Source: Candidatus Bathyarchaeota archaeon A05DMB-4
GTDB taxonomy: Archaea > Thermoproteota > Bathyarchaeia > Bathyarchaeales > SOJC01
NCBI GenBank assembly: GCA_019685575.1
Contig: JABFQO010000002.1
Coordinates: 1-64,000 of the forward strand
DNA length: 64,000 nt
Reading direction: 5' to 3'
The notes beneath the pieces are model-generated. The model searched no databases, had not been told where the DNA came from, and saw only the letters and a list, made by a program, of their open reading frames with translations. Both the position numbers and the translations under genes were made by a program. Shown piece after piece: positions 28,546-41,389 of the stretch. Position 1 is the first letter of the stretch; each line of letters opens with the position of its first letter.

Positions 28546-31257
28546 TTACATGAATCTTTCGAGTCTTGTTAGTCCTATGATTTCTTCAAATTCTAAGCCC
28601 AACGCGTCGAGTACTTGGTCGAATGTGGATTGGAGATAGCTGACGTATTTGTCTACGTCGATTTCATTGTCCGAGGCAAGTTCTACAGGCTTCACGTGTG
28701 GTTCCTTTGTTACTTTAACAAAGCTTATCAAGTCGCCCGCCTTTAGCGTTCTTCCTTGGTTTTCTAGCATTTTGGCAGCTCTAACGTGCTGAGGTGTCGT
28801 TTTTGTATAGGCCCTAAGGGATTCGCCGAGCACGACATGAAACGCAAGGTCGTTTAGGTTGTCCCATTCTCGTCTTTTTAGTCGCATGTAGCAGTCTAAA
28901 ACTATAGCGCGTATGTCTTTCTTTGCTTGGTCAAAATCCGTAGGCGTCTTCACTTGTGCGAGTCTTTGTTTCATCTGATCGAAGGCTTCTTTGATGAAAA
29001 AGGGTATGTGCTTCTTCTTGCCCGTTAATCCTTTAACATCAACGCTGCCGTCTTCAAGCACGCCCAGATAATTTTTTTTGCGACGACTGAAAACCGTGTA
29101 CCGATAAACCTTGTCCACATCGAGGCTCATTTTTAATTCATGTTCAGACCACTTCGCCAACTCGCTAATCTGTTGGTCTGAAGGGTTTTTCAAGAAAACG
29201 CTGTCGGTATCGCCGTAAATCACCTCGATGCCTAGTTCCCGTGCCTTGTCAATGATTAAGGTGATTGAATGACGCCCAATAGATGCTGTTGCTTCGGCCA
29301 CTGGCGGACAGTAAAGGTCAAAGGTTTCCGCACCGAAAACGCCGTAACTCGCGTTTAAAATGACCTTTAATGCGCTTTGGATAACCTCGTACCAACTGCG
29401 CTGTTCTTTGGAAAGTTGTTTATCCTTTGATTTGGGTTTATACCAGAAAACACGCAAGTCACGCAAGGAGCCGATTTGAAGACTTTCCAGAGCGCGTTTT
29501 TTGGTGCAAACCCAATGTTGCGTATCTGGCACTTTATTGGCTCGGCATTCCGGGTGAGGGCAGAGTATGGATTGATAGCCGAGGTTCCAGACTTTGATGA
29601 TGGACGGATATAGGCTTGGGAAATCCATTACTGCAACATTAAAGTGCACTCCGGGCACTGGTTCGACGACGATGGCGCCTTTGTATTTTTTGCCTTTAAT
29701 GATTGCTGTTGTGGAGGTTTTGCCTTTTACAGCGATTATGTCTGAAGTGTTGGGTATAAGCCATCCCTGTTTGCGGTGTTCTGCGTGCATGAAGTTTCGT
29801 ATCCATCGTGAAACGCCTTGGCGGCTTACGTCTTCCATAGGCATGTGGCTTATGCGTGCAAGGATGAGGATGAGTTTCATGGTTAGGTCGTCGTCAAAAC
29901 TCGTAAGTTTAAATGCGATTTCAGCGTCTCGGAAACAGTATCGCGCTAATTCTGAGTAAGTTAATTCACTTAAACTTTTTTCGAGTTCAATTTTCCTCAA
30001 ATTAATCAATGCCTTGCCCACATCGTCGAGTGTCACGTCGCGGTAGCGGTTGCTGAAGGCGTAGATTTGTATGGAACGGTTATAGAAGAACTTGTACAAG
30101 TCGATGTGGACGCCATAGCGGAGCAAACAAACACGATGTCCTACTTCAATCGGGATTTCACCTTTTTTGAAGCCTAGATTCAATGCTCGGTGAGCTAAGT
30201 AGCGAAAGTCGAAGTCGTCTCCGTTGAAGGTGATAACAAATGGGTAAGTCCATAAAACATCAAAAACTGCCTGAATCAACTTCTCCTCGCTTTCAAAAAA
30301 TTTCACGTTAACATCCGCAGAAAGTTTCTCCGCGCCTTCTCGTACACCCTCACGTTTCAACAATAATATCTGCTTGAGACCATCGGAACCGTACAAAGAA
30401 ACGCAGATGATGGGTTCTGAGGCTTCACGGGGGTCAGGTACGCGCGTAGGCACTGAAGAAAGCACTTCGATATCTAACGCAACGCGGCGAAACCTCGGTG
30501 CTGGGTATTCAAGCAACCTTGCCCAATGTTCGACGTGAGCCAGTTCTTCTTTGGATTCATTTTTGAAAAGTTGAAGAGTTTTCCGCACCATCTCCTCAGA
30601 AGACTCGAGATTTGCTGAGATTAGGTTGCCTTTCTCTACCTTGTAAAGCATGCCAGGCTCTAGTTGGCGGTCGTAAATGTAGGATTGGTAATATTTAATG
30701 TGGTCTTCCCAAACCTTCACCGACTCGGCTGCGACGCCAACAACTGCAGGCGCGTCCTGCGGTATAATATCACGCATGCAACCAGCGGGGCGACCACCAA
30801 CAGCTAAAGGGTCTTTCGCCACTACTTTGGTTACAGTGACATGTTTTTCTAAAAGTGGGCTAAATTTCTCCACGAGTTCAAGGTGGTCAAACCCTTGATG
30901 TGACGTTAGCCTGTGAATTTTTTCTAGTTCGATGGGTGACAGGTTTGTCAACAAATAGGGCTTGTGTCCGGTGTTGTCGTGCCAGAAGAATATTTGTTCA
31001 GAGATGGGCTCGTAAAGCTTTATATAAGCAGCACTTTTGCGGCCATCGTATGCAGCAGAAACAAAGTAGGAAGGTGGCAAATTTTCTGGCGCTTCAAACC
31101 GTTTTTTGATTCTTTCTTTTTCGATCTCCATCTGATCCCGAAAAGAAGCGTTTTGTTTTAATGGCGCCGTCTCGGTGGGCTTGGCTAGTTGAGTCGTCAG
31201 GGTTTTAGAGTAATCATCAAGCCGCCTTTGTGCCATTCCAAGCCTCACACTTTTCAT
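28546..31257 (-). CDS. polB1: family B DNA polymerase, crenarchaeal PolB1 type
   Basis: A replicative polymerase of 903 residues. The proofreading exonuclease is intact: ALDIEVL (D262, E264), FNGDDFD near 344-350 and the YCFRD motif (Y440, D444). Polymerase motif A is DFPSLYPSII at 545-554, motif B is KVILNASYGV at 631-640 and motif C is YGDTDS at 681-686. A Cys cluster (C566, C571, C584) between motifs A and B, ending HWVCTKK, matches Sulfolobus Dpo1. No clear PCNA-binding motif is seen at the C-terminus. A TTTTTAAG box 26 bases upstream suggests a leaderless transcript, divergent from the SMC-like operon. Confidence 0.96.
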   Translation of the reverse strand: MKSVRLGMAQRRLDDYSKTLTTQLAKPTETAPLKQNASFRDQMEIEKERIKKRFEAPENLPPSYFVSAAYDGRKSAAYIKLYEPISEQIFFWHDNTGHKPYLLTNLSPIELEKIHRLTSHQGFDHLELVEKFSPLLEKHVTVTKVVAKDPLAVGGRPAGCMRDIIPQDAPAVVGVAAESVKVWEDHIKYYQSYIYDRQLEPGMLYKVEKGNLISANLESSEEMVRKTLQLFKNESKEELAHVEHWARLLEYPAPRFRRVALDIEVLSSVPTRVPDPREASEPIICVSLYGSDGLKQILLLKREGVREGAEKLSADVNVKFFESEEKLIQAVFDVLWTYPFVITFNGDDFDFRYLAHRALNLGFKKGEIPIEVGHRVCLLRYGVHIDLYKFFYNRSIQIYAFSNRYRDVTLDDVGKALINLRKIELEKSLSELTYSELARYCFRDAEIAFKLTSFDDDLTMKLILILARISHMPMEDVSRQGVSRWIRNFMHAEHRKQGWLIPNTSDIIAVKGKTSTTAIIKGKKYKGAIVVEPVPGVHFNVAVMDFPSLYPSIIKVWNLGYQSILCPHPECRANKVPDTQHWVCTKKRALESLQIGSLRDLRVFWYKPKSKDKQLSKEQRSWYEVIQSALKVILNASYGVFGAETFDLYCPPVAEATASIGRHSITLIIDKARELGIEVIYGDTDSVFLKNPSDQQISELAKWSEHELKMSLDVDKVYRYTVFSRRKKNYLGVLEDGSVDVKGLTGKKKHIPFFIKEAFDQMKQRLAQVKTPTDFDQAKKDIRAIVLDCYMRLKRREWDNLNDLAFHVVLGESLRAYTKTTPQHVRAAKMLENQGRTLKAGDLISFVKVTKEPHVKPVELASDNEIDVDKYVSYLQSTFDQVLDALGLEFEEIIGLTRLERFM

Positions 31258-31449: not shown

Positions 31450-33495
31450 ATGCTAATTCAAGAAATAATCCTCGAGAACTTCATGAGCTACGAGTACGCT
31501 AGGGTACCCCTTAAACAAGGCGTCAACGTCATCTGCGGACCAAACGGTGCAGGCAAATCCTCAATGCTCCTCGGCATAAGCATCGCGCTTGGACAAAGCC
31601 AAACGGAACGATCCAAAAAACTCAGTCAACTTATAAGATGGGGCAAGGACCAAGCACGAATCACGCTTATCTTGGATAATTCGCCCAAAAAAGGCGGAAA
31701 AAGGCCTGTACAAAAAATCAAAAAAGACCAAATCTTCCTCACACGCACTCTACGGTTAGATGGTAAATACGAGTTTGAACTCGACAATCGCGCTGTCACA
31801 AAAGCCGACGTACAAAGAGTTCTGGCAAACTTCGGCGTCGACCCGGACAACTTGCTTATTATAATGCACCAAAACATGACCGAACAATTCACTGTGCTCT
31901 CGCTTCAAGAAAAACTTCGCGTAGTAGAAGCCGCTGTAGGCTTGGAAAAATATCGTCAAAACGTTCTCGAAGCCCAAAAAAAACTTAGCCGAATAATTAG
32001 CCAAGAAGAATCAGTCAATAACCTCCTCGAAAACGCGGCGCAAACTCTCAATTATTGGCGTGATCAATACGATCGTTACCAACAGAAAAAACAACTGCAA
32101 ATGAAAAGACGCTTGCTTGAAAGAGAACTCGCATGGGCAGAAGTGGCGAAGAAAGAAAATAACTTGAGTAATCTGGAAGCCAAAATAAAGCAAGAACAAA
32201 ACGAACTCCAAACACTCGCCAGTGAGATAACAAAAATTGACCGACAAATAACTGAATCGCAATCAAAGATAGCAATTGTTAAGGATGAATGGAAAAAACT
32301 TCTCGAAACCCGGCTCATCCTTGAACGTGAAAAGGCTGTTCATGAAGTTAATATTCAACTTGCCAATCAAACCCTCAAAGACATGCGTGATTGGATAGAA
32401 TCCAACAAAGAACGGATCGCAGATTGCCTAGGCAGAATACAACAATTCGAAACCACCCTAGGCAAAACCGCTACACTTGTAACCGCTCGCCTCGCTGAAG
32501 TCAAAAAAGCCTACGAAAACCTCGAAACCACATGGACACAGCAATTTGCCACGAGAAACCTGAACCTAAAACAAATAATCGACAATGCCACAACCCAACT
32601 CCAAACTCTTACCGCACAAATTGCCGAAACCGAAAACAAAATGGTCAAACTTAACGCAGAAATCGACCAAGCCACTAACCAAACCATAGACCATAAAATC
32701 AACAACGCCCTTCTTCAATATCGCCAACAAGCTGCACAAAAAACTCTTAAAGAACTCGAAACCGAACTCAAAAACGCAAAAAATGAACTCGCCGAGCTTA
32801 TAACGCGTGCAGAGCAAACAGGCCCACGCTTAGTGCCCATGAAAAATATTGCAGAAATTCTAGATGAGATTCGCTTAACTGATGGGCATTTAGCCGCTCT
32901 TACAGATGTTTCAGAAGACATTGAACGCATGTATGAAAACTATTCTAAACTATACCTTGAGCTCAAAGAAAAAGCCCGACTAGTCGCAGAAAACCATCAG
33001 AAGGCTCTAGAAGAAGTTAAAACTCGCATGGAATCTTGGCGAACCGTCATCCAAAGCCTACTCGACCATGTAAACCTTCAATATCAAGCCATACTCGCAA
33101 ACGCACAAGCCACAGGCGAAGTTCGACTAATCAACGCGCATGACATCGAAGCCGCAGGACTCGAGGTGTTAGTAGGCTTTAAAGGCGCTAAACCTGTCCC
33201 GCTCGATACGCATGCCCAAAGCGGCGGTGAACGCAGCACAGCTACCATGAGCTTCTTACTCGCCTTGCAACAGCACGTGCGCTCTCCATTCCGTGCCGTC
33301 GATGAATACGACATCCACATGGATCCAAAAAATCGCGAGATGATAGCTAACCTTCTGATTGAAGCCGTCAAAAACCTAGACACCCAATACCTCGCCATTA
33401 CCCCCAGCCAAATCACGTTCGCCGGCAAAGATGTCCACGTAATCACTGTTCAAAATATAGAAGGCAAATCGCAAGTCAAAGAGGTTGTAGCTTAA
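31450..33495 (+). CDS. SMC5/6-like ATPase without hinge domain
   Basis: An ABC-type ATPase of 681 residues with the head halves at the two ends. Residues 1-40 contain ENFMSYE and P-loop GPNGAGKSS (30-38); the Q-loop region follows near LIIMHQNMTEQF. Residues 150-500 form a coiled coil rich in Glu, Gln and Lys. The C-terminal head has signature SGGERST (591-597), Walker B AVDEYD with D-loop HMDPKNR, and AITPSQ where Rad50 has a His switch. The ITP tripeptide and DEYDIHMDPKNR resemble Smc5 and Smc6 rather than Smc1-4 or Rad50. No hinge and no zinc hook CxxC is visible. A Rad50-like or coalescin-like role is the alternative. Confidence 0.85.
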   Translation: MLIQEIILENFMSYEYARVPLKQGVNVICGPNGAGKSSMLLGISIALGQSQTERSKKLSQLIRWGKDQARITLILDNSPKKGGKRPVQKIKKDQIFLTRTLRLDGKYEFELDNRAVTKADVQRVLANFGVDPDNLLIIMHQNMTEQFTVLSLQEKLRVVEAAVGLEKYRQNVLEAQKKLSRIISQEESVNNLLENAAQTLNYWRDQYDRYQQKKQLQMKRRLLERELAWAEVAKKENNLSNLEAKIKQEQNELQTLASEITKIDRQITESQSKIAIVKDEWKKLLETRLILEREKAVHEVNIQLANQTLKDMRDWIESNKERIADCLGRIQQFETTLGKTATLVTARLAEVKKAYENLETTWTQQFATRNLNLKQIIDNATTQLQTLTAQIAETENKMVKLNAEIDQATNQTIDHKINNALLQYRQQAAQKTLKELETELKNAKNELAELITRAEQTGPRLVPMKNIAEILDEIRLTDGHLAALTDVSEDIERMYENYSKLYLELKEKARLVAENHQKALEEVKTRMESWRTVIQSLLDHVNLQYQAILANAQATGEVRLINAHDIEAAGLEVLVGFKGAKPVPLDTHAQSGGERSTATMSFLLALQQHVRSPFRAVDEYDIHMDPKNREMIANLLIEAVKNLDTQYLAITPSQITFAGKDVHVITVQNIEGKSQVKEVVA

Positions 33496-34313
33496 TGGCG
33501 ACCAAACGTGAAAAACGCAAACTGGGCCGAGAAGAACTCCAACGTATAATTGCCATGTGCATGTCGGTTGAAGAACGGGGGCTTGACCCGTTCCTCGTCG
33601 ATGTGGAGGATCTCATCAAAGTCATCCGAGAATACTTTCCAGAATGGAAGCTTCCTGAAGATTTAGTATTAGACGCAGAAACAATTCATCACCTCGCCTC
33701 TGTTATTAAGATGCAAAGCGAATGGGTGAAACACCGTTCTACGTCACTTTACACTGACCCGTTTCTTCTTGAAGAAAAAATTCGGCGACTGAGCCGCGAA
33801 CAACTTGCCACGATTTTTCTAAAGTCTTACCACCCAATTGTTGAATTAGAACAAATTTCGCCCCATAGCTTGATGCAAGCCGTTCAATACTGGAAAGATT
33901 TGATTCCGTTAGACGAAAGATGGAAAAGAGTTGAATACACCGAAACCTCTATGGGCGTCACTTCAAGAGAAGAAATGATTGAACAAAAAGTCATAGCTGA
34001 AAAACGGTTTTCGGAAGAATTGGAGGCATTTTGGCGTGAACTTCTTCAGAAAACTGGAGAAAAAGAGAAAATCGAATACTGGGACTTTATCGGCTCAGAC
34101 GATTTCAAAGAGACCGTGCGCCGCGCTTACTTGGCAAGTTTTTTGGTTACATACGGCTATGCTACGCTTGAAATCGACAGACTAGAAGAAATAGTCTTCA
34201 TAAAGCCTCACAAGAAACCAATCCCATTAACTGGCAAAAAAGAAGTCGTCTCTGTTCCCGTCTCCGTCAGTTATGATGATTGGATGAAATGGAAAGAGGC
34301 GAGGACAAGTTGA
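33495..34313 (+). CDS. unrecognised partner of the SMC-like ATPase, possibly kleisin-like
   Basis: A 272-residue soluble protein that I cannot assign by motif. Its ATG overlaps the ATPase stop (TAATG), so translation is coupled. The N-terminal third is helical with DPFLVDVEDLIKVIREYF and then a helix IHHLASVIKMQSEWVKHRSTSLY, which is reminiscent of the ScpA-type kleisin layout (helix pair, then K-x-S in a long helix). The C-terminal part has RRAYLASFLVTYGYATLEIDRLEEIVFI, compatible with a winged helix such as kleisins use to bind an SMC head. That reading is inference from context and secondary structure only. Confidence 0.7.
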   Translation: MATKREKRKLGREELQRIIAMCMSVEERGLDPFLVDVEDLIKVIREYFPEWKLPEDLVLDAETIHHLASVIKMQSEWVKHRSTSLYTDPFLLEEKIRRLSREQLATIFLKSYHPIVELEQISPHSLMQAVQYWKDLIPLDERWKRVEYTETSMGVTSREEMIEQKVIAEKRFSEELEAFWRELLQKTGEKEKIEYWDFIGSDDFKETVRRAYLASFLVTYGYATLEIDRLEEIVFIKPHKKPIPLTGKKEVVSVPVSVSYDDWMKWKEARTS

Positions 34314-34870
34314 AGAAAAAAGACATTTACGCCAGCAAAGTCAAGCGTGCCGCACATCTTCTCTTCTTTAGGCGCCACCGAAAACCGGGAGTTAAAGGCT
34401 GGGAACTTCGCAAAAGACTAGGCACTGATTATCCGAAGGTGTTAACTATTTTGGACAGTTTCTTGGAGAAACTTGACTTGCAAGTGAAGACCGTTTTTGA
34501 AAGCGAACCATCCAAAGAAGCGAAGCCGTCTTTGGAAGAGTTAGACAAGGCACGTTTTTACATAACCTTGCGTGGTGGACTTACTCCGAAAGAGACGAAA
34601 ATGATGGGTTGGCGTATTGACGACATCGCAGGTTTAGCCATTACGATTTCTTCTATTATTTCAAAAAAAGGCAAAGCACCTAGGGACGACGTTGAACAGT
34701 TGCTTCGTGACAAACTGCCTGGTTGGAGAGTGGACATAAATTTGGACCGTTATATTCGGTCGGGTTATATTGCTGAAGACGAAAACCGACAACTTTATCT
34801 CGACTGGAGAACAAGAGCCGAAATTGACGAATCCGCTTTGGTGAAGCTTCTTTTAGGCTCAGAAAGCTAA
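34310..34870 (+). CDS. winged-helix protein of the SMC-like operon (kite-like candidate)
   Basis: About 186 residues, starting at TTG in the TTGA overlap with the previous stop and preceded by GAGG. An ATG at 34280 would add ten residues. The N-terminal half looks like a winged helix (RAAHLLFFRRHRKPGVKGWELRKRLG...KVLTILDSFLEKLDLQV). The C-terminal half holds a second one (GLAITISSIISKKGKAPRDDVEQLLRDKLPGW...YIRSGYIAEDENRQLYLDW). Two tandem winged helices are the architecture of kite proteins (ScpB, MukE, Nse1, Nse3), which bind kleisins. No RING or catalytic motif is present. Confidence 0.7.
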   Translation: MKKKDIYASKVKRAAHLLFFRRHRKPGVKGWELRKRLGTDYPKVLTILDSFLEKLDLQVKTVFESEPSKEAKPSLEELDKARFYITLRGGLTPKETKMMGWRIDDIAGLAITISSIISKKGKAPRDDVEQLLRDKLPGWRVDINLDRYIRSGYIAEDENRQLYLDWRTRAEIDESALVKLLLGSES

Positions 34871-38494: not shown

Positions 38495-41389
38495 TTAGCC
38501 TTGCACGGGTTTTTTCTGGTTTTCCCAGTATGGTTTTGTCCGCAAGTACTGAATCTTTGCCTTAAGCAAGTCCATGTAGAAATCATCTTCATTTGAGTGC
38601 ATTTTTCCAAGAATGCGGAAGGCTGTTTCAGGTCCAACCCCCTTGACTTGGAGGGCGATTAATGCTTTCTTTCCATAACTTAACGTAAGATCGGCGGTGC
38701 GGCGTGCGTAGCTTAAGTGTTCAAGTTCTTCCGACGTAAGTTCTGCTCCTTTTTGGCGTCGTTTAAGAATTTCCATTAGAGTTTTTGGGTTTTGGTCCAA
38801 TCGAACCTGCGCCAGAAGTCCACTACCACATTTCTCGCAAACGGGTTTTTCTGATAATTCTCGAATTCGTTTTTCTTTTGTCCAGTCGCCGCACGAGAGG
38901 CAGAGAAGTGTGGTGATTCTTAGGTTGATGGTCTTTTTCATGCGCTCAATGTTGCTTAGAAGAACCTTTTCTGGCGCCATAAGCTCAGGTGTCTGCAAAA
39001 ACTTTTCCAAAATACCGTAAGCGATGGGTGACGGTTTTTCCAAACAAAGCAACCTGGCGATTTTTATTTTTCCTTCTTTTATTTCGTGCATGATGTGTTT
39101 TACTGTTGAAAGGTCAACTTTTTCCTGCAGCGCCTCTCGTAAAGTTTCTTCGTAAACTGGAGTCTTCTCAAACCTTCTCGCCAATTCTTCTTGTCTTTCT
39201 GGTCCCATAGTTTTTCCACGTGGAAGTGCGCCGAACCTTTCGGCAACAAACTTCATCTTATAACCAAACGGAAAGCGGGCTTTCAAATATTCATTAAATG
39301 CCTTGTCCACTTCTTCGTCGGATAGGCGAAAAAGAACATTAGATATTTTTTCAAGATTTTCACGCGACACTTTGCTGGGCATTTCGACGAGAATTCGGTA
39401 GCCATCGTTCCACCAACCAACAATCAGTTCTTGGTCAGACAAAACCGCGTCAAAAATACTGCCCAAAGTGCGGTTCACGATTTCGCCAAAGCAAGCATGG
39501 ATAACCAAATATTTGTCGAAGCCCTCGATAAGAATGCTCTCATGAGTAGGTAGTGGAACATTCTGTTTCAAGTGCTCGTCTATCTCTTCGATTGCTTTAC
39601 GCATCGCGTTATTGTCTACTGAAAGCTTTTTCGCCAAAATTTCCGTTGTTTTTTCAACGCTTGCTTCTTTTTGTAGAAATTCTGCGATTTCTTTACGAAG
39701 TCGACCCGTTTCCTGTGCGAGATCAAAAGGAACAGGTAGCATTTCGCCGTCCCAGCCAGGAATTGCAGCGTACGGATCTTCAGATGGTATAACATAAACG
39801 GTGCCTGTTTCGTCCTCTATTTGCACGATGCGCCAGATTTTGCCCTTACAAATGAAGTTCAAGCCTATCCTCGCCCTTAAAGCCATGAACTCGTCGCCTA
39901 AAGTGCCAATGGAACGGTCGGAAAGCACGTCGATTATTGGGTATCGCTTTTCGTCTGGAATCATTGACAGGTTTTCGTAATAGTACGTTCGAGTTTTTCG
40001 TGTTTTCCGCAAAGTGTCTCCTTCTATCTCCAATTCTCCAAGTATATCTAGGTAATTTGCCACGTCTAAAAGTTTGGCTTTTGAGAGGTTTTGGTAGGGG
40101 TAGGCGCGCTGGACTATTTGGAGAACTTGGTCTACTGTGGCTTTGCGTTTGTCCATGAGAATGCCCGCTATTTGATGTGCTAAAACATCGAGTGCGCCCT
40201 TGTGAATTTGAATCGGCTCCAATAGACTCTTGTAAGCTCTTTTTACTGCAGCAATAGACTCTAAAATGTCGTCAAAAAAAGCCGTAATTATGATGCCCTT
40301 CGACACTAAACCAAGCCTATGTCCGCTTCTTCCAACCCGCTGAATAAGATTGCAAACTTGCCTTGGCGAAAGATATTGCACCACCAAATCTACCGTTCCA
40401 ATATCGATGCCAAGTTCCAAGGTACTAGTGCAAACTATGCCCTTTAAACGTCCAGCCTTAAACTCGTCTTCAATGAAGGCTCTTTCCTCTTTTGAAAGCG
40501 AGCCGTGATGCACCGCAATGTCAGTGGTTAATTGGTTTAATTTGCTTCCCAGAATCTCAGCGTTTGTTCGACTGTTCACGAAAATAAGCGTCGATTCGTG
40601 ACTTTTCACCAAGTCCAAAATGTACCTAACTCTCGCTGCTGCTTCAGGGGCAGTTCGCCATTTCCCAGCAAGGTCATAATCTGCGTCTTCAGGAACAGGA
40701 AACACGACATTATAATGAAAACTTTTTGGCAACGGAACTACAACAACTTTTATTGGTCGATTAGTGCCCGCGATAAATTGTGCCATTTCGTCGGTTTTCC
40801 CAACTGTGGCGGATAAGCCGATTCTTTGAAACTCTTTCCCAGTGATTTCAAAAAGCCTTTCCAACGCAATCGTTAGTTGAGTGCCCCGTTTGTCTTCGGC
40901 TAACTGGTGAACTTCATCAATAATAACGTAACGCACATTGCTCAAATGTTCTCGCATACGGCTACCCGGCAAAATAGCTTGCAACGTTTCTGGCGTGGTC
41001 ACCAGCATGTTGGGAGGGCGAAGCGCTTGTCGTCTTCGTATCTTTATCTCCGTATCACCGTGTCGAACTTCTATGGACATACTCAAATGTTCTGCCCAAG
41101 AAGAAAGTCGTCGAACCAAGTCACGGTTGAGTGCACGAAGCGGCGTCACATAAACAATCGCTATGCCTTTCTTTTCTTTTTGTTGAAGAAAACTCGAAAA
41201 AACTGGCAAAAATACAGCCTCTGTCTTTCCACTACCAGTGGGCGCAACCAAAAGAACATTCTCTCCAGCCAAAATCAGCGGAATCGCCTTAACCTGAGGA
41301 GCCGTAGGTTCAGAAAACCCAAATTCACTTAACGTCTTTTGCAAAGGCTTAGCAAGCAATTCAAACACGCTAGATGCGCTTGTGCCCAT
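38495..41389 (-). CDS. lhr: Lhr-type superfamily 2 helicase
   Basis: A large ATP-dependent helicase of 964 residues. The DEAD-like core contains the Q-motif region GFSEPTAPQVKAIPLIL, motif I APTGSGKTE, motif II DEVHQL, motif III SATVG, motif V TSTLELGIDIG and motif VI QRVGRSGHR. The long C-terminal part includes the Lhr winged-helix/beta-barrel region, a zinc ribbon (CLSCGDW...CEKCGSG) and a helix-hairpin-helix (ALQVKGVGPETAFRIL). Lhr proteins unwind 3'-tailed duplexes and RNA:DNA hybrids in repair or RNA metabolism. The zinc ribbon and hairpin mark an archaeal subgroup. Confidence 0.92.
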   Translation of the reverse strand: MGTSASSVFELLAKPLQKTLSEFGFSEPTAPQVKAIPLILAGENVLLVAPTGSGKTEAVFLPVFSSFLQQKEKKGIAIVYVTPLRALNRDLVRRLSSWAEHLSMSIEVRHGDTEIKIRRRQALRPPNMLVTTPETLQAILPGSRMREHLSNVRYVIIDEVHQLAEDKRGTQLTIALERLFEITGKEFQRIGLSATVGKTDEMAQFIAGTNRPIKVVVVPLPKSFHYNVVFPVPEDADYDLAGKWRTAPEAAARVRYILDLVKSHESTLIFVNSRTNAEILGSKLNQLTTDIAVHHGSLSKEERAFIEDEFKAGRLKGIVCTSTLELGIDIGTVDLVVQYLSPRQVCNLIQRVGRSGHRLGLVSKGIIITAFFDDILESIAAVKRAYKSLLEPIQIHKGALDVLAHQIAGILMDKRKATVDQVLQIVQRAYPYQNLSKAKLLDVANYLDILGELEIEGDTLRKTRKTRTYYYENLSMIPDEKRYPIIDVLSDRSIGTLGDEFMALRARIGLNFICKGKIWRIVQIEDETGTVYVIPSEDPYAAIPGWDGEMLPVPFDLAQETGRLRKEIAEFLQKEASVEKTTEILAKKLSVDNNAMRKAIEEIDEHLKQNVPLPTHESILIEGFDKYLVIHACFGEIVNRTLGSIFDAVLSDQELIVGWWNDGYRILVEMPSKVSRENLEKISNVLFRLSDEEVDKAFNEYLKARFPFGYKMKFVAERFGALPRGKTMGPERQEELARRFEKTPVYEETLREALQEKVDLSTVKHIMHEIKEGKIKIARLLCLEKPSPIAYGILEKFLQTPELMAPEKVLLSNIERMKKTINLRITTLLCLSCGDWTKEKRIRELSEKPVCEKCGSGLLAQVRLDQNPKTLMEILKRRQKGAELTSEELEHLSYARRTADLTLSYGKKALIALQVKGVGPETAFRILGKMHSNEDDFYMDLLKAKIQYLRTKPYWENQKKPVQG

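Follow-up and report, generated by a model that had tools for sequence, protein, structure and literature searches.

A hinge-less Smc5/6-like SMC encoded in an operon with an Nse4-type kleisin and a KITE protein in a Bathyarchaeota archaeon

In a 64,000-nucleotide stretch of the genome of Candidatus Bathyarchaeota archaeon A05DMB-4 (the window), we found three overlapping genes encoding a hinge-less SMC ATPase, a kleisin and a KITE protein. The Smc5/6-type identity of this trio is strongly supported, and we consider it probable (roughly 78%) that it represents an archaeal relative of the Smc5/6 core, in which a homodimeric SMC, an Nse4-type kleisin and a dimeric KITE would act as an ATP-gated DNA clamp. 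Smc5/6 is the least understood of the eukaryotic SMC complexes. The original prediction was drawn from the SMC gene; the kleisin and KITE genes next to it turned out to be stronger evidence than the features of the SMC gene that were noted first.

The SMC gene (31450..33495, + strand) is an intact open reading frame of 681 aa with an ATG start, and Pfam SMC_N covered residues 3-664 of its product (E = 1.4e-33); its assignment as a Smc5/6-like hinge-less SMC ATPase draws on the reading frame, Pfam, PDB profiles, AlphaFold2 and trees. The head motifs, predicted to be complete, were all found in place and conserved in 52 diverse orthologues: Walker A GPNGAGKS at residues 30-37 (31537..31560, +; orthologue alignments), the ABC signature QSGGERS at residues 590-596 (33217..33237, +; alignment), and the Walker B/D-loop segment DEYDIHMDPKNR at residues 618-629 (33301..33336, +; profile alignment and family motif counts). 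The tripeptide ITP, common to Smc5/6, occupies the switch position at residues 650-652 (33397..33405, +; profile alignments) as part of ITPSQ (residues 650-654). Among the orthologues, GPNG[AS]GKS was kept in 52/52, the strict pattern DE[FY]D-x-H-x-D in 45/52 and ITP in the large majority, and the consensus of the archaeal Smc5/6-like family reads DE[FY]D[VI]H[ML]D plus ITP. The corresponding D-loop and switch are DEFDVFMDQVNR...ITP in yeast Smc6, DEFDVYMDMVNR...LTP in human Smc6 and DEINQGMD...ITP in Smc5, whereas canonical archaeal SMCs mostly have DE[IV]DAHLD with ITL or VSL, and Rad50 has DEPT with ITH or VTH. Two sequence marks of the Smc5/6 clade, ITP at the switch and a D-loop of the form DE-x-x-x-x-MD, are present in the window SMC, and their earlier association with Smc5/6 was borne out. 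Orthologues with 51-65% identity occur in most genomes of the same order, so chance is no concern; the named relatives, at 54-66% identity, were nearly all Bathyarchaeota.

Comparisons of the protein sequence strongly indicate that the window SMC head is nearer to Smc5/Smc6 than to any other SMC. When the single sequence was searched against the PDB, Smc5 (1.4e-26) and human Smc6 (2.3e-26) led; the best match of the N-terminal half alone was Smc6 (4e-16), and that of the C-terminal half alone was Smc5 (1.4e-18). The family profile, built from the 52 diverse orthologues and run against the PDB, was led by ten Smc6/Smc5 chains with E-values from 4.7e-70 to 2.1e-55 (Smc6 4.7e-70, human Smc6 3e-69, Smc5 4e-66, human Smc5 2e-55), followed by Pyrococcus SMC (2.2e-52), Smc2 (1e-46), Smc3 (7e-42) and also Smc1 and Smc4, with Rad50 far down the ranking (about 1e-11). 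As a control we used the canonical SMC of the same genome, for which Pyrococcus and Bacillus SMC and then Smc1-4 ranked highest and no Smc5/6 match at E <= 1e-30 was found in the PDB. Foldseek of the predicted SMC structure returned yeast Smc5/6 chains first.

Maximum-likelihood head trees were built from the two head halves joined (352 columns); eukaryotic Smc1-4 were not included in them and are represented by the profile ranks. The archaeal family, Smc5 and Smc6 formed one clade with a support of 100/99 when nine Rad50-like outgroups were used and 99/94 with three, and in this tree without Smc1-4 the canonical SMC and Rad50 heads fell outside that clade. The best tree that placed canonical SMC, without Smc5/6, next to the archaeal family was rejected (p-AU 0.038), as was the best tree that joined Smc5/6 with canonical SMC (p-AU 0.025), both at modest strength. 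Smc6 forms a long branch, and the two head trees disagree on the position of the archaeal family, as sister of Smc5 plus Smc6 or nearer to Smc6. These results uphold the predicted SMC5/6-like identity, with Smc6 and Smc5 outranking all other SMCs and a clade bootstrap of 99-100%.

The genome (1.53 Mb, archaeal) holds one full-length Smc5/6-like SMC gene and a separate canonical SMC of 1183 aa that adjoins a ScpA-like gene. A truncated or decayed paralogue of the canonical SMC would agree with SMC_prok_A being the best prokaryotic NCBIfam model (3.9e-56). However, the NCBIfam SMC_prok_A and SMC_prok_B scores were 190 and 142 bits against cut-offs of 729 and 567, the ATPase motifs are intact and conserved family-wide, and the tree sets the protein apart from the full-length SMC of the same genome. 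With that 1183-aa SMC and its adjacent ScpA-like gene standing separately, we rejected this reading as very improbable. We attach equally little credence to a hookless Rad50 or an ASRP/coalescin (ClsN/Sph-type) protein, with which the window SMC shares an ABC head on a hairpin coil, a similar overall size and model matches of 1e-19 (Rad50) and 7.5e-13 (ASRP). These scores lie far under the model cut-offs (NCBIfam ASRP 47.9 bits vs 300), the zinc hook of those proteins is missing, Rad50-like proteins fall outside the SMC clade in the tree, and kleisin and KITE partners are present here, whereas Rad50 has neither (PMC10586767). An identity as Rad50, ASRP or arcadin-4 was rejected on the sub-cut-off scores, the absence of a hook and the tree position, and neither profiles nor trees placed the protein within Rad50 or coalescin.

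The AlphaFold2 monomer model of the SMC (52-sequence alignment, mean pLDDT 85.5) runs from an outgoing coiled-coil helix (residues 166-336; 31945..32457, +) through a five-residue tip turn (residues 337-341, pLDDT 66-71, no CxxC; 32458..32472, +) and a returning coiled-coil helix (residues 342-454; 32473..32811, +) to a joint and the C-terminal head. The tip turn lies at what we take to be the place of the hinge or hook in other SMC and Rad50 proteins. Residues 455-490 (GPRLVPMK...EILDEIRLTDGHLAALTDVSEDI; 32812..32919, +), modelled by AlphaFold2 and conserved in the alignment, may by analogy be the SMC 'joint', and the uninterrupted helix of 171 residues would make the arm about 25 nm long. 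Walker A and the signature lie 446-562 residues apart in about 75 relatives versus 1046-1058 in canonical archaeal SMCs, and none of the short members among these relatives carries a CxxC. The predicted monomer, a plain helix-turn-helix arm with no hidden hinge or hook, together with this short spacing confirmed the absence of a glycine-rich hinge and of a zinc hook at the level of sequence and predicted structure. The middle 350 residues had been described as coiled coil; the coil stood, and its length was corrected to a hairpin of about 290 residues (166-454), with 455-490 forming the putative joint.

The moderate pLDDT of the tip (66-71) means that a small interface there could be missed, and this bears on a less likely reading in which the same three-subunit complex closes into a ring by dimerisation of its arm tips via coiled coil and works as a smaller loop extruder. 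The head, kleisin and KITE that such an extruder needs are all present, and Smc5/6 extrudes loops (PMC10132971). Yet the tip varies more in length and is less conserved than any other stretch of the alignment, and no motif is shared there; the Walker A-signature spacing also ranges over more than 100 residues among family members. We regard tip closure as possible but doubtful and prefer the ATP-gated clamp.

Immediately downstream, the ATG of a 272-aa gene (33495..34313, +) has one base in common with the stop codon of the SMC gene. Its product alone matched Pfam Nse4_C at E = 7e-4, under the gathering cut-off, in a C-terminal winged helix (residues 198-268; 34086..34298, +). Nse4_C was matched by 25/28 close relatives and 21/36 diverse relatives (best 1e-6), and no other Pfam family recurred comparably among them. 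The profile of diverse relatives found yeast Nse4 (1.2e-5) and the human Nse4-type EID3 (3e-5) in the PDB, with archaeal/bacterial ScpA next (2e-3); these E-values were obtained with profiles built from the relatives collected here, and the match to Nse4 is confined to the C-terminal part. Because Nse4_C recurs among the relatives and Nse4 tops the diverse profile, we assigned the product of 33495-34313 as a kleisin nearest to Nse4. Single-sequence Pfam and NCBIfam scans of both the kleisin and the KITE were nearly blank, and profiles of diverse orthologues were required.

The third gene (34280..34870, +; 196 aa) overlaps the kleisin gene, and its start is uncertain (TTG at 34280 or ATG at 34289). 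AlphaFold2 modelled its product as tandem winged helices (27 sequences, mean pLDDT 78), and Foldseek of this model gave the MAGE-G1/NSE1 complex, other MAGE domains and Nse1-Nse3-Nse4 as best matches, with ScpB and MukE lower in the list. Among diverse relatives, SMC_Nse1 was matched by 7/36 and MAGE by 5/36; the window KITE as a single sequence had no Pfam match. Searched against the PDB, the profile of close relatives yielded chance-level matches only, and that of diverse relatives yielded a designed protein and MAGE at E 0.02-0.04. The assignment as a Nse1/Nse3-like KITE thus rests on the fold search, since the sequence-only profiles are weak. There is no cysteine in the window KITE and therefore no RING. 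Relatives searched had one KITE gene per genome, except one genome with a second copy. In that genome (G009:C1:446608-448256), the second KITE gene lies beside 90 aa of the SMC C-terminus (78% identity), and the two together look like the decayed remains of another operon copy.

The SMC, kleisin and KITE genes overlap in the window and in relatives, and kleisin and KITE were kept beside the SMC in 28/30 close relatives. Among same-order genomes covered by both searches, 23 encode SMC as well as kleisin, 9 encode neither and 1 is discordant (G019, with only an SMC fragment of 431 residues). Where the SMC is located elsewhere, the kleisin and KITE genes were still adjacent in 7/7 genomes. At three loci (L076, L084 and L086), kleisin and KITE genes were observed with no Smc5/6-like SMC within the 7.5 kb examined. 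The kleisin was present in 126/300 Thermoproteota genomes drawn evenly, and the trio, or at least the kleisin-KITE pair, occurs across Thermoproteota, Hadesarchaea and methane-cycling Euryarchaeota, the named carriers being Bathyarchaeota, Nitrososphaeria, Methanomethylicota, Thermofilales, Brockarchaeota, Hadesarchaea and Methanosarcinales/Methanophagales. Most of these genomes are metagenome-assembled, so an isolated absence could reflect a gap in the assembly.

This broad inheritance, with one copy per genome and no island-like pattern, argues against a Wadjet-like (JetABC) defence system on the chromosome for sensing circular DNA of foreign origin. The trio shares with Wadjet/MukBEF-type complexes the gene logic of SMC, kleisin and KITE in a single operon, human Smc5/6 has a part in antiviral immunity (PMC10586767), and PADLOC gave weak matches to AriA, LmuB and JetC. 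These matches, however, arise from the shared ATPase and coil; the kleisin and KITE had no PADLOC match, the Wadjet/MukBEF heads are not the closest, and no JetD-like nuclease or topoisomerase-like partner of the trio was seen among the listed ORFs of the window. We consider a defence role improbable, and a defence island was rejected with the PADLOC matches reaching only the common ATPase/coil.

Outside the complex, an Lhr-type helicase gene (38495..41389, - strand) is a recurrent neighbour of the trio, lying within about 6 kb of it at 29 loci in several lineages (L128, L131-L136, L144, L150, L160-L162, L165 and others), often convergent and just downstream of KITE. Archaeal Lhr is reported to be a fork-targeting helicase (PMC7437997), and its gene proximity suggests a possible functional partner. 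A family of 230-aa proteins is divergently transcribed upstream of the Smc5/6-like gene at about 39 loci (L106:4133-4945, L075:5724-6419, L165:5174-5869 and about 36 others), and its association with the trio is likewise an argument from proximity; a member is present on another contig of the window's genome (G000:C14:20939-21652). No Pfam or PDB relative of this family was found, and 17 aligned members have 33 invariant columns in common. At 16 Bathyarchaeota-type loci (L093, L094, L097, L099-L104, L108, L111, L112, L118, L146, L167 and L168), an RNA polymerase large-subunit block, identified by reading the sequence without a family search, is located 2-5 kb downstream of the Smc5/6-like gene in convergent orientation. 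The family B DNA polymerase gene polB (28546-31257, -; family match), divergent and 192 bp from the trio, was rejected as a conserved neighbour, as it is not kept in other loci.

At least five related genomes contain a long Smc5/6-like SMC of about 1040 aa whose coil tip bears a zinc hook of the Rad50 type, C-x-x-C-G-S (L154:2941-6057, +; likewise L207, L208, L209, L211 and L212). In the tree this hooked form is nested inside the short family, and two genomes (G337 and G339) carry it alongside the short hinge-less form. The L154 gene is surrounded by ribosomal-protein genes; a search of that genome, which may be incomplete, turned up no Nse4-like kleisin. The window's genome itself encodes a short Rad50-like protein of 695 aa with the zinc hook CPLC (G000:C18:8887-10975, L188:88-2175), which scores far under all Rad50 equivalog cut-offs.

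In DNA-bound yeast Smc5/6, the engaged heads surround one DNA duplex together with Nse4 and the KITE Nse3, and Nse4 holds the Smc6 neck with its N-terminal part and the Smc5 head with its winged helix (PMC9191643). All parts of this DNA clamp have archaeal counterparts and the hinge is missing, so a homodimeric ATP-gated clamp would be expected, and we infer its stoichiometry, assembly, DNA clamping and cellular role as follows. The single SMC ATPase would be used as a homodimer and the single KITE protein as a dimer, like Nse1-Nse3. Two ATP would be sandwiched as the two SMC heads engage; one SMC may be bound at its neck by the N-terminal helical part of the kleisin and the other at its head by the kleisin's C-terminal winged helix, with the KITE dimer seated on the middle of the kleisin. 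Heads, kleisin and KITE would then clamp double-stranded DNA atop the engaged heads, comparable to DNA-bound yeast Smc5/6. Without a hinge the arm tips could not be closed by the usual domain, so that the arms of about 25 nm would be free or weakly paired at their tips and the complex would be mainly an ATP-gated clamp or short-step translocase, not a classical hinge-closed ring. It would operate beside the canonical SMC-ScpA of the same cell, not in its place, with a likely role in the upkeep of replication forks and recombination intermediates.

Like the eukaryotic Smc5/6 core (Smc5, Smc6, Nse1, Nse3 and Nse4), the archaeal trio has a related head sequence with DEFD-x-x-MD and ITP, an Nse4-type C-terminal winged helix and a KITE fold nearest to Nse1/Nse3. 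Unlike the eukaryotic complex, the window SMC lacks a hinge and has arms about half as long, a single SMC gene replaces the heterodimer (some relatives have the second, hooked form), and one KITE gene stands in place of two, without the RING of Nse1. Canonical SMC-ScpAB of bacteria and SMC-ScpA of archaea also pair SMC with kleisin, and with KITE in the bacterial version, but the canonical SMC has a hinge and forms a separate complex in the same genome. Archaeal SMC-ScpA was reported without KITE subunits (PMC7055376), against which we place a KITE in an archaeal SMC family. A hinge-less SMC clade of marine Actinobacteria was reported in 2025 from ocean metagenomes (PMC12153180); compared by description only, its members likewise combine an SMC-like head with a coil that has no hinge and no CxxC, but they are bacterial and no kleisin or Smc5 is named for them.

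Yoshinaga & Inagaki described in 2021, as cited in PMC9389158 and stated in PMC10003631, an 'SMC5/6-related' SMC of archaea; like the window SMC, it groups with eukaryotic SMC5 and SMC6, and on that description the two almost certainly belong to the same family. The presence of an SMC5/6-like SMC in an archaeon therefore held as predicted, and its novelty did not, the type having been published in 2021. The papers searched, the 2021 paper aside, mention neither the absence of a hinge in this family nor its Nse4-type kleisin, its KITE, the operon or the hook variant. A 2024 preprint on the prokaryotic roots of SMC complexes (doi 10.1101/2024.01.07.573240) may describe the same complex. Given the 2021 report and this possible overlap, we claim as new only the lack of a hinge, the Nse4/KITE operon and the zinc-hook variant.

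A question in the field is why Smc5/6 kept KITE subunits when cohesin and condensin took HEAT-repeat partners. We see an even chance that the trio is a complete Smc5/6-type SMC-kleisin-KITE complex without a hinge, that this homodimeric archaeal machine predates eukaryotes and that part of the family gained a Rad50-type hook. The archaeal three-gene version would be a minimal Smc5/6, small enough for reconstitution, and it makes directly testable both an origin of Smc5/6 in archaea as a unit and the clamping or moving of DNA by a hinge-less SMC complex. If this reading is true, a DNA motor or clamp of the Smc5/6 class could do without the hinge, a homodimeric Smc5/6 encoded by three genes would have been present in archaea before eukaryotes, and some archaeal members would since have acquired a Rad50-type zinc hook in place of the missing hinge. 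How Smc5/6 arose, and what its minimal design is, could thereby be studied outside eukaryotes.
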